From: Verrucomicrobiales bacterium
GTDB lineage: Bacteria; Verrucomicrobiota; Verrucomicrobiia; Verrucomicrobiales; DEV007
NCBI GenBank assembly: GCA_029213065.1
Contig: JARGPH010000029.1
Location: 1 to 64,000, forward strand
Length of the DNA: 64,000 nt
Reading direction: 5' to 3'
This document shows positions 14,951 through 26,306 of this stretch, in pieces. Position 1 is the stretch's first letter, and the number at the start of each line of letters is the position of its first letter. Below the pieces are notes generated by a model that was not told where the DNA came from, did not search any database, and saw only the letters and a list, made by a program, of their open reading frames with translations. Both the position numbers and the translations under genes were made by a program.

Positions 14951-15700
14951 TTATTCATCTTTCGATGCGGTTGGAGAGGCCTCTTTCTCGTCGATTCCGA
15001 AGAGTGTCGTGGCAGCTGATGTGCGCATTCCGGCAGCGGCTTCCTGATCCAGTTTTTCCTGAAAATCGACGGTGCAGCGGGCAAATGGCATTGCTTCAAG
15101 ACGAGCCACCGGAATCGCGACCCCGGATCCTTCACAAATTCCGTAGTCTCCGGAGTCGATCCGGAGAAGTGCTTCTTCGATCTGGTGAAGCGCGTCCTGC
15201 TCCTGTGAAAGAAGATTCAGGGCAAAATCGCGGTCATACGCGTCACTTCCGGCGTCTGCCTGATGCATTCCGAAGGCGGATGAGTCGTGGTTGTCTTCTC
15301 CTTTTCCAAGTGTGTCACGGGCGACACCGTTCATCTGGTCGACGAGCGTGTCGCGGAGATCGAGAAGCTTCTGGCGCTGCTTTTTGAGGAATGTCGCGGT
15401 GAGCTTCTTGGGCTTTCCGCCTCCGTTGCTATCTACCGTGGAAGCAGGGGGGAGCGGGGAAAGATGAGAGAGGAGAGGGCGTCTCTTCGCCTGATTGAGC
15501 TTCCTGACAGGAGCGTTCTTGCTGATGGCCTTCTTAGTTGCTTTTTTAGCAGAGGCCTTCTTCGCTGGCGCCTTTTTAGCCGGAGCTTTCTTGGCAGCGG
15601 CTTTTTTCGCTGGTGCTTTCTTCGTCGCCGCCTTTGCAGGAGCTTTAGTGGCCGACTTTTTCTTAGCAGGAGATTTCTTTTTAGCAGCTTTCTTAGCCAT
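14951..15700 (-). CDS. DksA/TraR-like protein with histone-H1-like Lys/Ala/Pro tail and incomplete zinc finger
   Basis: 249 residues from the ATG at 15700; the frame runs 36 codons further upstream without looking like protein. Residues 1-75 are almost only Lys, Ala, Pro, Ser and Thr in repeated AKKAPAKKA-type units, as in histone-H1 C-terminal tails and bacterial H1-like proteins. Residues ~100-220 match the DksA/TraR family: a coiled coil ([20 protein letters not shown]), then [16 protein letters not shown] and [14 protein letters not shown]. Of the four zinc cysteines only Cys189 and Cys209 remain; positions 192 and 212 are Ser and Asp. It heads the rpmG-rpsR operon. A nucleoid or RNA-polymerase role is inference. 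Confidence 0.8.
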
Positions 15701-15823
15701 GTTGGGGGCGCGGGGGAAAAGTTGAAAATCTAATTGGGATTTCGGCGTTGTGCCTACCTCTCTGAGGCAAATCGCGAGACTTGTAATACATGTCAAGGTT
15801 AGTCGCAAGAGGAAAATCTATAC

Positions 15824-21706: not shown

Positions 21707-22744
21707 ATGTGGAAGGTATTTCTTGTCATTTCATCCGTCATCCTCGGAGGCGCCGCTTATCTTAGCTATTCCAACATGGAAGTAGTCAAAGAGCGTATTG
21801 CCCAGGTTGCGGAACAAAATCAACTGCTGGAAGCTCGTCAGGCGTCTCTTGCTAAGACCAATGAAGAGGTTGCCCAGTTGGAGCAGTCGATTCAAATGTT
21901 GAAAGACGAAGCCGAGAAGCTGGGAACCGAGAAAATCGATCTCGATGCCAAGTTGGTCGAAGCTCAGTCCAATGAGAAAGCGCAAGCTGCCAAGCTCGTT
22001 ACGGCTAAAGAGGACCTCGAAGAGGCCCGTTCGCTGATGGGCAATATCGCCAAGGTCGAAGCTCTCCAGAAAGAAATGAATCAGATTCGCGCCCAAGTTG
22101 AAGAGGCTGAGATCGAAGTGGTTCAAATGGAGGGTGCTGCTGCTGCCGCGAAAGTGGAGGCGGATCGCCTTTCCAAAGTGACTGAGGAACTGAAGGCTCT
22201 TCGTCTTGATCAGGAGGCCGGTCTTATCCGGGGTGAGTTCCAGTCCGAGATTCGCAATGCCTACAATCAGTGGGGATTTGTTGTTGTTCAGGGTGGCAAT
22301 GATCAGGGCGTCGTAAATCGCGCCCAGATGGATGTTTACCGTCGCGGTCAGCCCATCTGCAAACTTCTCGTTACTTCGGTCGAGCCGACCTATTCAGTGG
22401 CGGATATCATTCCCGGATCGCTTGCCCCCGGGCAGTCGGTTCAGATGGGTGATACGGTAGTGAAAACAGTTCGTGCGATGACAACGACAGCGCCTTCCGC
22501 TCCTGCGGGTGGTGCAGCAGCTCCTGCGGCGACGGCTCCGGACGAAGGCGCTTCACCTGCTCCCGCGCCGGCCGCGGATGATCCATTCGGTGGAGGGATG
22601 TCAGCGCCTGCTGCAGAGCCCGATCCATTTGGTGGTAGTGCACCGGCTGAGCCGGATCCCTTCGGCGGAGGTGGTGGCGCCATGGAAGGTGGAGATGCAC
22701 CGGCAGCTCCCGCAACACCGGCTGAACCAGATCCTTTCCAGTAA
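21707..22744 (+). CDS. Membrane-anchored coiled-coil protein with beta-barrel-like domain and DPF-repeat tail
   Basis: 345 residues. A membrane helix or uncleaved signal (1-20) leads into a long coiled coil (~25-185, Glu/Gln/Lys-rich heptads). A compact domain (~190-260) follows with NQWGFVVVQGGNDQGVVNRA, LLVTSVEPTYSVADII and GDTVV; this SH3-like pattern is seen in MreC- and FlgT-type proteins. The tail is Ala/Pro/Gly-rich with four DPF motifs and ends DPFQ. The next gene is a paralogue in the coil and the beta domain. An envelope scaffold or sensor role is inference. Confidence 0.7.
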   Translation: MWKVFLVISSVILGGAAYLSYSNMEVVKERIAQVAEQNQLLEARQASLAKTNEEVAQLEQSIQMLKDEAEKLGTEKIDLDAKLVEAQSNEKAQAAKLVTAKEDLEEARSLMGNIAKVEALQKEMNQIRAQVEEAEIEVVQMEGAAAAAKVEADRLSKVTEELKALRLDQEAGLIRGEFQSEIRNAYNQWGFVVVQGGNDQGVVNRAQMDVYRRGQPICKLLVTSVEPTYSVADIIPGSLAPGQSVQMGDTVVKTVRAMTTTAPSAPAGGAAAPAATAPDEGASPAPAPAADDPFGGGMSAPAAEPDPFGGSAPAEPDPFGGGGGAMEGGDAPAAPATPAEPDPFQ

Positions 22745-22790
22745 CTCTGAGAGAATTCGCGAATATTAACTCCGGAAATTTCCTAATAAG

Positions 22791-23582
22791 ATGAAAAAAT
22801 TTATAATGATTCTCTCAGCCCTCATCATGATGGGCTCCGCGTTCGTAGGGATCATCAACAAAGATGATCTCAAAGAAGTAGTCGAAAATCTCGAAAAGGT
22901 TCGCGGTGATGTCAAGACCGCTACTGCCCAGCTCGGTGAGGCTGAGGATAAGCGCGATGATGCCACTGAGAAAGAGACTCAGGCCAAAGACGGACGCAAC
23001 CAGGCTGCTGCGGCGGTTGAAGGTGTCAGGCAGGAGTTGAAAATTGCGGCTCGTGCCCTTGAAGATGTTTCCGCTGAGCTGAAAAAAGTGGAGATCGAGA
23101 AAAAGGAAATCGACCTCGCGGTTCAGAAGCAGTTTCCGGATGGGAAAATTAAGACGGCTGAGGATCTCACGATGACTCTCACAATGCTTAAAGATACTCT
23201 GACTGAGAAGCAGAATAAAAAGACTGAACTTGCCGCAGTTGTGACGACCGCGCAGCAGACAAAGCAGTCTGAGGTCGCGAAAGTGAAGCAGGAGGAGAAA
23301 TACCAAATGCAGCGGGCTCAGAAGCTTGCTCTCAATGGGCTCACTGCCACCGTGATCGCTGCTAACAAAGAATGGGGATTTGTGATGGTCAACGCCGGCC
23401 GTCAGCATGGTGTTGCTCCGGATGCCTCTTTGCTTGTTAAGCGCGGAAACACACGTATTGCCCGACTTCGGATCGTTACCCTCGAAGAAGCGGTGACGGT
23501 TGCGGACGTCGTTGACGAATCAATCGTTCCCGGAATCGAAGTGCATCCCGGCGATAAAGTTATTTTCGAAAACGTGCAGTAG
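22791..23582 (+). CDS. Paralogous coiled-coil envelope protein with the same beta domain
   Basis: 263 residues, starting 46 bases after its paralogue. An N-terminal hydrophobic segment (1-20) is followed by a long coiled coil (~25-185) and a C-terminal domain with NKEWGFVMVNAGRQHGVAPD, ARLRIVTLEEAVTVADVV and PGDKVIF. These positions match the neighbour (W-G-F-V-x-V, G-V, V-A-D, G-D-x-V), so the two arose by duplication. This copy lacks the Pro/DPF tail. The pair may assemble through the coils; the hetero-oligomer idea is inference. Confidence 0.7.
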   Translation: MKKFIMILSALIMMGSAFVGIINKDDLKEVVENLEKVRGDVKTATAQLGEAEDKRDDATEKETQAKDGRNQAAAAVEGVRQELKIAARALEDVSAELKKVEIEKKEIDLAVQKQFPDGKIKTAEDLTMTLTMLKDTLTEKQNKKTELAAVVTTAQQTKQSEVAKVKQEEKYQMQRAQKLALNGLTATVIAANKEWGFVMVNAGRQHGVAPDASLLVKRGNTRIARLRIVTLEEAVTVADVVDESIVPGIEVHPGDKVIFENVQ

Positions 23583-23632
23583 AAGATTTGTTCTTCTATT
23601 GGATTTAATTCGTCCGCGAACTATTCTAAGTG

Positions 23633-23821
23633 ATGAAATTGCTTCTTAACCTTTTTTTGCTGGTTCTTGTCGCGACTGGTCTTTCTTTGACTTCCTGCGA
23701 GACGGTTGATTCAGATCCGCGCCCTGAGCGCGAAAAGCTCAGTAGCATGCCTCATAATATTCCCCAATCCTGGGAAGGTCAGGCCGGGATGCCGGGCTTT
23801 GGCGGTGGCGGAGGTTACTAA
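23633..23821 (+). CDS. Small lipoprotein with Gly-rich C-terminus
   Basis: 62 residues from ATG 23633 (a GTG lies directly before it). The signal ends in a good lipobox LTSC, so Cys22 would be lipidated. The mature part is 41 residues, polar, and ends GMPGFGGGGGY. It begins 50 bases after the coiled-coil gene and 51 bases before the cyclic-nucleotide-binding gene, so it is probably in the same operon. Function unknown. Confidence 0.65.
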   Translation: MKLLLNLFLLVLVATGLSLTSCETVDSDPRPEREKLSSMPHNIPQSWEGQAGMPGFGGGGGY

Positions 23822-23872
23822 AACGCATTCCCCGGAATCTGTTCCGTAAAATTTTTCTGAACTATCTGATCT

Positions 23873-24340
23873 ATGTCCGCTGATTCTACTGAACTTCCCG
23901 AAATGGGTTTCGCTTCCAATTTCGATGAGGAGGAGCGGGTTTTGCTTGGCGGATTCGGTGAATTTATCTCACTGAATGAAGGTGATATCCTGATTCAGGA
24001 AGGGCATCCACAGGATTCACTTTTCATGGTGATTTTCGGAAAGTTCCACGTCCAGACCGAAGTTACAGGGCGTTCCGTTTTGTTGGGGATTCTTAAAGCG
24101 GGTGACACTGTGGGTGAGGTGAATATTTTTGATTCAGGGAATGCGAGTGCCAGCGTGGTCAGCAATACATTTTCCCAGATTTGGAAAATTGACCGGGCAA
24201 GTCTTGAGCAGTACCTTGAGGCCCACCCGAGAACTGCAGCGCGACTTCTTGTGAACATCGCGACGCAGCTCAGCAAGCGATTGAGATCAACAAACGAGAA
24301 AGTGGCGATGGCACGCGAAGCGATGCTTGGTTCTTTCTAG
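23873..24340 (+). CDS. Cyclic-nucleotide-binding (CRP-like) domain protein without HTH
   Basis: 155 residues. It is a single cNMP-binding beta roll: FISLNEGDILIQEGHPQDSL, then KAGDTVGEVNIFDSGNASAS, which occupies the phosphate-binding cassette. The canonical G-E-[LI]-A-L-x(n)-R-[ST]-A is changed: GEVNIFDSGNASASV lacks the Arg that grips the cyclic phosphate, so it may bind another ligand or none. It has a C-terminal helix but no winged helix, so it is not a standard Crp-type activator. It may be a stand-alone sensor for the neighbouring envelope proteins. Confidence 0.8.
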   Translation: MSADSTELPEMGFASNFDEEERVLLGGFGEFISLNEGDILIQEGHPQDSLFMVIFGKFHVQTEVTGRSVLLGILKAGDTVGEVNIFDSGNASASVVSNTFSQIWKIDRASLEQYLEAHPRTAARLLVNIATQLSKRLRSTNEKVAMAREAMLGSF

Positions 24341-24405
24341 TTGGGGGTCTCAGCACAGGAACTCCCTATATTAATTCCTGCCAAGGCGGGAAACAGCACC
24401 TCTTT

Positions 24406-24831
24406 ATGTTTGAGCCTTCAACACTCCCATTGGACCATGTGTCAGGTGTAGGCTCCGCATTCGCTCTCTTTTTCGCCCTTTTGATCGGGCACGCGGTCGC
24501 TGATTTTCCTTTGCAGGGAGATTTTCTCTCTCACGGGAAAAACCGGAAGCTCGATCCGCCGAAGTTGGCCGACGGAAAAGCGCCGACGACAACCTGGGTA
24601 TATCTCATGACGGCCCATGCGCTTATTCACGCGGGCTTCGTCTGGTTGATTTCAGGGTATCTTATTTTTGCGGTGATCGAATTCGTCCTGCATTGGCTCA
24701 TCGATGTCGCCAAGTGTGAAGGCAAGACTTCTTTCGCACTCGATCAATGGCTTCATGTGATCACGAAGGCGGTTTACGTGGTGATTCTCTGGTCGGGCTT
24801 GATGAACCAGTATCCGAATCCCGGCCCGTAG
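24406..24831 (+). CDS. DUF3307 family membrane protein
   Basis: 141 residues with three to four membrane helices. The motif IGHAVADFPLQGDFLSHGKN is characteristic of DUF3307 proteins (H-x-x-x-D-F-x-x-Q). HALIHAGFVWL and LHWLIDVAKCEGKTSFALDQWLH add conserved His and Asp residues in or near the membrane. The function of the family is unknown; the His/Asp pattern hints at metal binding or hydrolysis. It is in line with the preceding genes (65-base gap). Confidence 0.75.
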   Translation: MFEPSTLPLDHVSGVGSAFALFFALLIGHAVADFPLQGDFLSHGKNRKLDPPKLADGKAPTTTWVYLMTAHALIHAGFVWLISGYLIFAVIEFVLHWLIDVAKCEGKTSFALDQWLHVITKAVYVVILWSGLMNQYPNPGP

Positions 24832-24913
24832 AGGGGGTGGTTTGGATGAACGGGTGGGGATTTGGCTTCGTTTCAGGGGCTTTTCTGTTGAAATGAGATG
24901 GTGTCATCGCGAC

Positions 24914-24927
24914 CAACACCGGTGTTG
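24914..24927. promoter_or_regulatory. Perfect 14-bp palindrome upstream of the S41 protease
   Basis: CAACACCGGTGTTG, perfectly symmetric, 32 bases before the protease start codon. Size, symmetry and position are those of an operator for a dimeric regulator; the regulator is unknown. It could also be chance. Confidence 0.35.
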
Positions 24928-24959
24928 AAAAGGCGTCTCTCTGGGCGAACGTATCCATC

Positions 24960-26306
24960 ATGATTTTAAGATCGCTGACATTGCTCTTCGCGTGCGGATT
25001 AATGCTCTCAACGGCCCTTGCTCAGGTTGACTCTGATGAAGCGGATCTGGGCTTTAAGGAGATTGAGCTTTTCACCGAAGTTCTGGAAACAATTCGTCAG
25101 GGATATGTGGATGAGGATAAGGTGTCCTATGAGCGATTGATTAACAGCGCCCTCGCCGGCATGCTCGCTGACCTCGATCCTCACTGCCAGTTCATGCAGC
25201 CAAAGGTTTTTGATCAGCTCAAGCGCCATACCGACAGCACTTACGATGGTATTGGAGTGACGATCTCGACGAAGAATGATTCTCTGACCATCGTCACTGC
25301 AAGAGAGGATGGTCCCGCCGCGCGCGCGGGAGTTTTACCCGGGGATCATATCATGAAAATTAATGATAAACTCACAGAGGATGTGGGGATTTCCGAGGCG
25401 GTGAATATGCTCAAGGGCAAGCCGGGGGAGGCGATCAAGCTGACGATTCGTCGTCCTGCGACGCAAAAGCTTCACGAGTACGAGATGAAGCGGGAGGTCA
25501 TTAAGCAATCTTCTGTTAAGGATGTCAGGATTTTGAATCCTGAGTTAACGAAACCTTATCGGATGGGATACGCCCGAATTCTTCAATTCAGCGAGCCAAC
25601 AGCGACAGAACTCGCCGACGCTCTCGACAAACTCGAGCAGGAGGGAATGGATGCCTTCGTTCTCGATATGAGGAATAATCCCGGGGGATTGCTTAACAGC
25701 GCTATCGATGTCTGCGGTGAGTTTGTGAAAGCGGGAACGGTCGTGCTCACCACTGAAGGAAAGCCGGGTTCCGGACAGATCAAGGTTTTCAGGACGAGTG
25801 CGAAGAACAAGCGTCGTGAGCGGGATTATCCTCTCGCGGTATTGCTGAATCATTCTTCGGCGAGCGGTGCCGAAGTGGTCGGTGGTGCTCTTCAGGATCT
25901 CAAGCGTTGCATCGTTGTCGGCGAGACCTCTTTTGGCAAGGGATCGGTTCAATCGATTCTTCCGATTGGCGACGGGAAGGCGATCCGGATGACGACGGCA
26001 AAATATTATACTCCGAGCAGTCATCGCACGATCCACGAAAACGGTGTGATTCCGAATATTGTCGCGACTCTCACCCCGGCTCAGGAGCAGGATCTTATTC
26101 GCTGGTTCAGCCGCGATACGATGTCACCGGCGCAGCGAAAAGAGGCGGAAAAATTCAGAGACCCACAAGTCGTGCGAGCGATCGATGCGATGAAAGGTGC
26201 TCTCGTTTATTCCAAATTCGGCGAGGAGAATAAGGCAGCTCCTGCACCTGCACCAGCGCCGGAGAAAGAAGAGGAGAAAATTGAGTCGGCGGAAGAAGGC
26301 GAGTAG
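24960..26306 (+). CDS. C-terminal processing peptidase (S41 family, PDZ-containing)
   Basis: 448 residues with a signal peptide (1-21). A PDZ domain spans ~90-165 (DGIGVTIS, AARAGVLPGDHIMKI, AVNMLKGKPGEAI). The S41 catalytic part has the Ser/Lys dyad Ser302 (SSASGAEVVGGAL) and Lys327 (TSFGKGSVQS); their spacing of 25 matches plant D1 protease. The C-terminus is Ala/Pro/Glu-rich and disordered. By family it trims C-termini of periplasmic proteins. It ends the run of envelope genes and is followed 28 bases later by tsaD. Confidence 0.92.
   Translation: MILRSLTLLFACGLMLSTALAQVDSDEADLGFKEIELFTEVLETIRQGYVDEDKVSYERLINSALAGMLADLDPHCQFMQPKVFDQLKRHTDSTYDGIGVTISTKNDSLTIVTAREDGPAARAGVLPGDHIMKINDKLTEDVGISEAVNMLKGKPGEAIKLTIRRPATQKLHEYEMKREVIKQSSVKDVRILNPELTKPYRMGYARILQFSEPTATELADALDKLEQEGMDAFVLDMRNNPGGLLNSAIDVCGEFVKAGTVVLTTEGKPGSGQIKVFRTSAKNKRRERDYPLAVLLNHSSASGAEVVGGALQDLKRCIVVGETSFGKGSVQSILPIGDGKAIRMTTAKYYTPSSHRTIHENGVIPNIVATLTPAQEQDLIRWFSRDTMSPAQRKEAEKFRDPQVVRAIDAMKGALVYSKFGEENKAAPAPAPAPEKEEEKIESAEEGE

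Follow-up and report, generated by a model that had tools for sequence, protein, structure and literature searches.

MreC (PF04085) is built from an N-terminal anchor, a coiled coil and two small beta barrels, and very small lipoproteins of the LptM type (NF047847) present a tiny lipid-anchored peptide; both resemble parts of the system described here. In Verrucomicrobiota, an abundant phylum-specific lipoprotein of Methylacidiphilum fumariolicum, WP_009060351, has been proposed to connect the outer membrane with the wall (PMC10260701), and the essential-genome paper on Verrucomicrobium spinosum offers transposon essentiality data and a count of 100 essential proteins of unknown function (PMC12283558). 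We analysed a stretch of 64,000 nucleotides (the window: positions 1 to 64,000 of contig JARGPH010000029.1, assembly GCA_029213065.1) from a Verrucomicrobiales bacterium with a genome of 5.9 Mb (G000:C44), whose nearest named relatives are Verrucomicrobiales / Akkermansiaceae metagenome-assembled genomes. The window contains two adjacent genes, A and B, for anchored coiled-coil proteins that end in a beta domain, followed by the gene of a PWN-type lipoprotein:

21707..22744, + strand: A, open reading frame; anchored coiled coil, six-strand beta domain (predicted) and Pro/Ala/Gly tail with four DPF motifs
22791..23582, + strand: B, open reading frame; anchored coiled coil and the same beta domain as A; adjoins the lipoprotein gene and is the better-conserved copy
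23633..23821, + strand: PWN-type lipoprotein (here SSMPHNIPQSWEG); signal peptide, lipobox Cys and Glu at position +2

We are nearly certain that these three genes form a genuine conserved gene unit that has so far gone unnamed. A full-text search of the open-access literature returned no description of it, and none of the loci in the main text of the V. spinosum paper could be matched to it (PMC12283558).

Conservation of the A-B-lipoprotein unit

A (345 amino acids) and B (263 amino acids) are separated by 46 bp, and B lies 47 bp from the GTG start listed for the lipoprotein or 50 bp from the ATG one codon further downstream. Among 80 named Verrucomicrobiales loci, A stands upstream of B in all 77 in which both are readable, at a spacing of 27-144 bp with the single exception of L085 (320 bp, B split). 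In 78 of the 79 loci whose sequence is usable here, a match to the lipoprotein profile follows B; only L099 lacks one, and the sequence of L098 ends 4 bp past B. In the 13 loci read outside the window's family but within the order, A and B are the only genes that stay adjacent, and a search for a third constant neighbour, made by clustering the flanking genes, recovered local synteny only. Both proteins are conserved as such among relatives, which argues that the observed pattern is not due to chance. A scan for promoters and terminators at the locus returned about as many sites as in shuffled sequence.

Beyond the order, 183 of 276 good phylum genomes contain a match to the profile of B. Of 60 loci examined in other orders and classes, 50 encode a tiny lipoprotein downstream of an anchored coiled-coil/beta gene, which is often single. 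Forty-nine of these were retrieved by scanning the same strand immediately 3' of the gene for [LIMVS]-P-[WH]-[NS], a motif that occurred only twice in 418 kb of flanking DNA, and L287 (KPWSRPASWE) is the fiftieth. The position of the lipoprotein 3' of the coiled-coil/beta gene, kept here and within Verrucomicrobiales while other neighbours change, supports the view of a unit. Six of the ten loci lacking a downstream lipoprotein belong to one family, f26 (L175-L178, L257, L283), in which no small lipoprotein is encoded next to the coiled-coil/beta pair and a larger lipoprotein of about 150-175 amino acids carries the motif at its C-terminus instead (L312-L314). This swap suggests that function resides in the peptide and not in the rest of the protein. 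In f26 loci L175-L177 a conserved open reading frame (ETWQF/ETWLF...) also lies downstream of the coiled-coil/beta gene or genes.

The lipoprotein profile matches 104 of 115 near-complete genomes of the phylum at E 1e-5 or better, part of these matches having been read individually, and the genomes with a match include two of only 0.9 Mb (G069, G090). Several genomes initially scored as lacking the coiled-coil/beta gene turned out to have a diverged version immediately ahead of the lipoprotein gene, encoding an anchored coiled coil that ends in a beta domain (L297-L299, L301, L303-L307, L309-L311). In another family the coiled-coil/beta gene has undergone a separate tandem duplication, followed by the lipoprotein (L179, L180, L261, L266); upstream of the unit in one of these loci (L180:3391-4467) lie repeated frame fragments (YHNAPVRARSK / LSQCPGEGKIK) that resemble a repeat array of the CRISPR (clustered regularly interspaced short palindromic repeats) type.

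Architecture of A and B and of the lipid-anchored peptide

An earlier reading of this stretch, made from its letters without database searches (the sequence-only reading), had described A and B as adjacent membrane-tethered paralogues sharing one small beta domain, and this description agrees with our data. The two C-terminal domains are 37% identical over 68 amino acids (E 1e-12 in a single comparison), reach a probability of 99.8 when profile is compared against profile, and both carry the positions W-G-F-V-x-V, G-V, V-A-D and G-D-x-V; their adjacency, as seen above, is kept across the order. The N-terminus of the coiled-coil/beta proteins is signal-anchor-like. AlphaFold2 models place helices at 2-111 and 117-170, strands at 179-253 and a disordered tail in A (predicted local distance difference test score 82), and helices at 2-114 and 123-182 with strands at 186-259 in B (score 81), so that both proteins are predicted alike: helix, break, helix and then six strands. 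The sequence-only reading had proposed to compare the folds of the two beta domains, and the strands follow the same order in both models. In a tree of 73 beta domains (93 usable columns) A and B group together, separate from the copies found in other classes (97/91); within this clade A is monophyletic (93/87) and the B clade is weaker (79/73). A and B are thus paralogues with one fold, and their duplication arose inside Verrucomicrobiales. Neither protein belongs to a Pfam or NCBIfam family.

The four-fold DPF tail ascribed to A is indeed present (window 22570-22744). Similar repeats, mostly in 2-6 copies, occur in several families of the order; A has no such tail in the Akkermansia group or in a small number of others. 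The order, including the genome of the window, also contains a further type of paralogue in which an anchor, a Pro/Gln-rich linker and the terminal beta domain are combined without a long coiled coil:

L064:8340-9233: linker-type paralogue without long coiled coil
L061:8582-9220: the same type
L062:8492-9136: the same type
L063:7621-8262: the same type

The lipoprotein of the window measures 62 amino acids from its ATG, of which the mature part takes up about 40. Its hidden Markov model matches the window's own genome at E 3.5e-17, and among close relatives the frame varies most at the third position of codons (5385 changes, compared with 3556 at the first and 2638 at the second), so that the frame behaves as a protein-coding gene. 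In most cases the mature protein has 28-45 amino acids and comprises little beyond a peptide that is near-invariant across the phylum, [LIM]-P-W-[NS]-x-[PQ]-x-x-W-E; examples are CATTENREESDLPWNTPQPWETAPTIPGLNDR (L259) and CISTTSDNSDLPWNTPPPWEGVPTIPGLSTP (L191). All 47 members of an alignment share the Cys and one Pro, and nearly all of them the Trp-Glu pair. When these 47 members were scanned, no Pfam or NCBIfam family scored over its cut-off, the best matches reaching E 0.001-0.1 in a few members and none in the copy of the window. A lipobox is present, and Asp occurs at position +2 in none of 69 lipoprotein candidates, a pattern that would point to a location in the outer membrane.

Neighbouring genes

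Downstream of the unit, three more genes follow on the same strand:

23873..24340, + strand: free-standing cyclic nucleotide monophosphate (cNMP)-fold protein without the phosphate-gripping Arg (PF00027, E 4.6e-18); neighbour, outside the unit
24406..24831, + strand: DUF3307 membrane protein (PF11750, E 3.2e-10); neighbour, outside the unit
24960..26306, + strand: CtpA-like PDZ/S41 C-terminal processing protease (TIGR00225, E 4.5e-86); neighbour, outside the unit

All six genes that the sequence-only reading had listed are therefore present, on the + strand and in the place given for them, and the order reads MutY, A, B, lipoprotein, cNMP-fold protein, DUF3307 protein, S41 protease and TsaD, where MutY and TsaD were named from reading the sequence and not from a family search. 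The remaining gaps amount to 51 bp (lipoprotein to cNMP-fold gene), 65 bp (to the DUF3307 gene), 128 bp (to the protease gene) and 28 bp (to TsaD). The identities assigned to the three neighbours hold as well. The DUF3307 protein scores 40.6 bits against a cut-off of 23, and the protease 288.9 bits against 218.6, with its Ser (SSASGAE) and Lys (SFGKG) motifs kept. In the cNMP-fold protein the gripping Arg is replaced (GEVNIFDSGNASASV), and it is absent too from 11 of 11 readable orthologues in other genomes. Such Arg-lacking free-standing proteins are widely conserved within the order, independently of A-B, and some genomes have more than one copy.

The sequence-only reading had further combined all six genes into one candidate envelope cluster and proposed to look for a conserved gene order among relatives. 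For A, B and the lipoprotein, which travel together, the cluster stands; for the other half it does not, an outcome which that reading had itself named as speaking against it. Most genomes of the genus clade to which the window belongs keep synteny over the entire interval between DksA and IspH, so that a gene order shared there is not specific to the cluster; the DUF3307 gene, tracked through synteny alone, is syntenic in this clade only. Whole-genome searches within the window's family, outside its genus, show that A-B, the cNMP-fold gene and the protease gene (Ctp) lie on three different contigs (G318, G319, G328, G334, G344, G332), Ctp is found about 190 kb from A-B (G320), the cNMP-fold gene stands beside Ctp with both away from A-B (G336, G339), or B and the cNMP-fold gene are together and Ctp is elsewhere (G323). 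Contig breaks may conceal some of these links, hardly all of them. Since the linkage dissolves outside the genus clade, the six-gene assembly is rejected. The stretch consists of two modules side by side, and the cNMP-fold, DUF3307 and protease genes are local neighbours only. Further upstream, the DksA-type protein of the window (14951-15808, - strand) carries a long Lys/Ala-rich, histone-H1-like N-terminal extension.

Possible roles and comparison with known systems

Our best explanation, which we put forward tentatively, is that A-B-lipoprotein is the form taken in Verrucomicrobiales by a phylum-wide envelope unit that links or spaces membranes or holds another machine. The coiled coil would stand out from the inner membrane, in which it is anchored by its N-terminus, the lipid would tether the PWN peptide to the outer membrane on its inner side, and the six-strand beta domain would bind this Pro/Trp peptide. 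The pair might thus link or space the two membranes, or keep another envelope machine in place, and A, where the DPF tail exists, would add a multivalent binding tail for a further partner. A physical partnership of the proteins is likely, and we are slightly inclined to accept direct binding of the peptide by the barrel; a membrane-linking role is conceivable, its chances being somewhat below even. It is rather doubtful that the genes make up an undescribed phylum-defining linkage or assembly system, in which the lipid-anchored peptide of about 30 residues would be the ligand of the inner-membrane-anchored coiled-coil/beta-barrel protein, the pair would carry out in Verrucomicrobiota a task that other phyla assign to unrelated proteins, and the DPF tail would be a later, order-specific multivalent docking tail.

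Several observations weigh against this explanation. A helix break is predicted near residue 115 of A and B, and a hairpin at this point would turn the barrel round to face the inner membrane instead of extending it to the outer one; the predicted template modelling scores of the two models are low (0.38 and 0.50). The +2 rule, on which the placement of the lipoprotein depends, is unproven in Verrucomicrobiota. In the two 0.9-Mb genomes G069 and G090 the coiled-coil/beta gene was not detected and the lipoprotein is kept, and in L308 an HU-like gene takes the place of the coiled-coil gene upstream of the lipoprotein; another partner is therefore possible. The occurrence of the lipoprotein without the coiled-coil gene in a few lineages, together with the separation of the two genes in G052, would also be expected if there were no direct partnership and the genes were adjacent for co-expression only, each with its own envelope role. 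The conservation of adjacency across many orders despite changed neighbours, and the motif swap of f26, make this distinctly unlikely.

The wide spread of the lipoprotein bears on a further alternative, in which the PWN peptide docks on an outer-membrane machine such as BamA or LptD, as LptM does on LptD, and the coiled-coil/beta protein serves as an inner-membrane-anchored chaperone or delivery arm. Being more widespread than its coiled-coil neighbour and retained in the 0.9-Mb genomes, the lipoprotein fits a near-universal partner, and Verrucomicrobiota are reported to lack LolB, the methanotrophs studied there lacking LolA, BamB and BamC as well (PMC10260701). No recurrent bam or lpt neighbours were noticed in the loci read, however, and the only sequence link to LptM was a weak score in 3 of 47 members, so that we consider an assembly factor rather improbable. 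A scaffold of cell-wall morphogenesis, functionally related to MreC and with a lipoprotein that would act on a synthase in the manner of LpoB-type activators, is suggested by the shared layout of transmembrane segment, coiled coil and beta barrel, by a Foldseek match to MreC (2j5u, E 9e-4) and by a match of B to the NCBIfam MreC model (NF010532, E 0.0019) that stays far under its cut-off (17 bits against 243). Against it stand the weak profile comparison with the MreC of relatives, the presence of a true MreC in the same genome, and the retention of A-B in genomes without an MreC match (G010, G013, G024, G031); we regard this scaffold as unlikely. As for the assembly proposed by the sequence-only reading, a six-gene scaffold trimmed by the S41 protease upon a ligand sensed by the cNMP-like protein, the common strand, the short gaps and the synteny inside the genus clade speak in its favour. 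As most other genera of the family, and the order beyond it, do not keep its pieces linked, and as the genus synteny reaches far past the cluster, it is highly improbable, and neither the trimming step nor a ligand is supported.

Compared with described systems, A and B share with MreC the anchor, the coiled coil, a small beta barrel and a related motif, I/V-D-x-G-x-x-x-G-V. They differ from it in having one barrel and not two, in their gene context and in the accompanying PWN lipoprotein. Neither protein matches PF04085, no mre genes were noticed near A/B in the loci read, where neighbours vary, and alignment with hhalign to relatives' own MreC gave probabilities of 1-66% over 26-49 columns. 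The TM-scores (a measure of structural similarity) of the Foldseek match are low since only the small barrel aligns well. An assignment of A/B to MreC is hence rejected by the profile comparison, the single barrel and the separate true MreC. The best fold match of the beta domain is the C-terminal domain of FlgT (PF16538; PDB 3w1e, 8z5n; E 3e-4 to 4e-4), which ranks first for A (LPHT ring) and shares the top with MreC for B (E 4e-4 to 9e-4). ATPase barrels score close behind, which indicates a common small barrel and is no proof of kinship. FlgT is a ring protein of the flagellar basal body and has no such anchored long coiled coil; its FlgT_C profile stayed below cut-off, matching 2 of 20 members with a best E of 0.014, and no flagellar genes were noticed in the loci read by eye, no search with flagellar profiles having been made. 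With a fold match only and no flagellar neighbours noticed, a flagellar role was set aside.

The helices of A also gave a weak match to the periplasmic adaptors MacA, EmrA and AcrA. In these proteins lipoyl halves flank the helices, whereas the beta domain of A only follows them, and no transporter recurs by the unit; because the helices match only weakly and the domains do not come in the required order, this candidate was rejected as well. On the side of the lipoprotein, LptM-type proteins are similarly tiny, but their motif differs. WP_009060351 has 139 amino acids and lies beside amyA/galT, and the accessible text of its description mentions neither a coiled-coil neighbour nor a PWN motif; the described length, signal peptide and neighbours alone set it apart from the PWN lipoprotein (PMC10260701).

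Altogether, the unit comprises an anchored envelope protein and a lipoprotein partner, none of whose components falls into a described family. Gene callers and family databases can overlook a lipoprotein as small as this one, whose mature part appears to be nearly pure binding motif. The pair is kept adjacent across the phylum, including Akkermansia and the proposed model organism V. spinosum, and is probably part of how the envelope is built.

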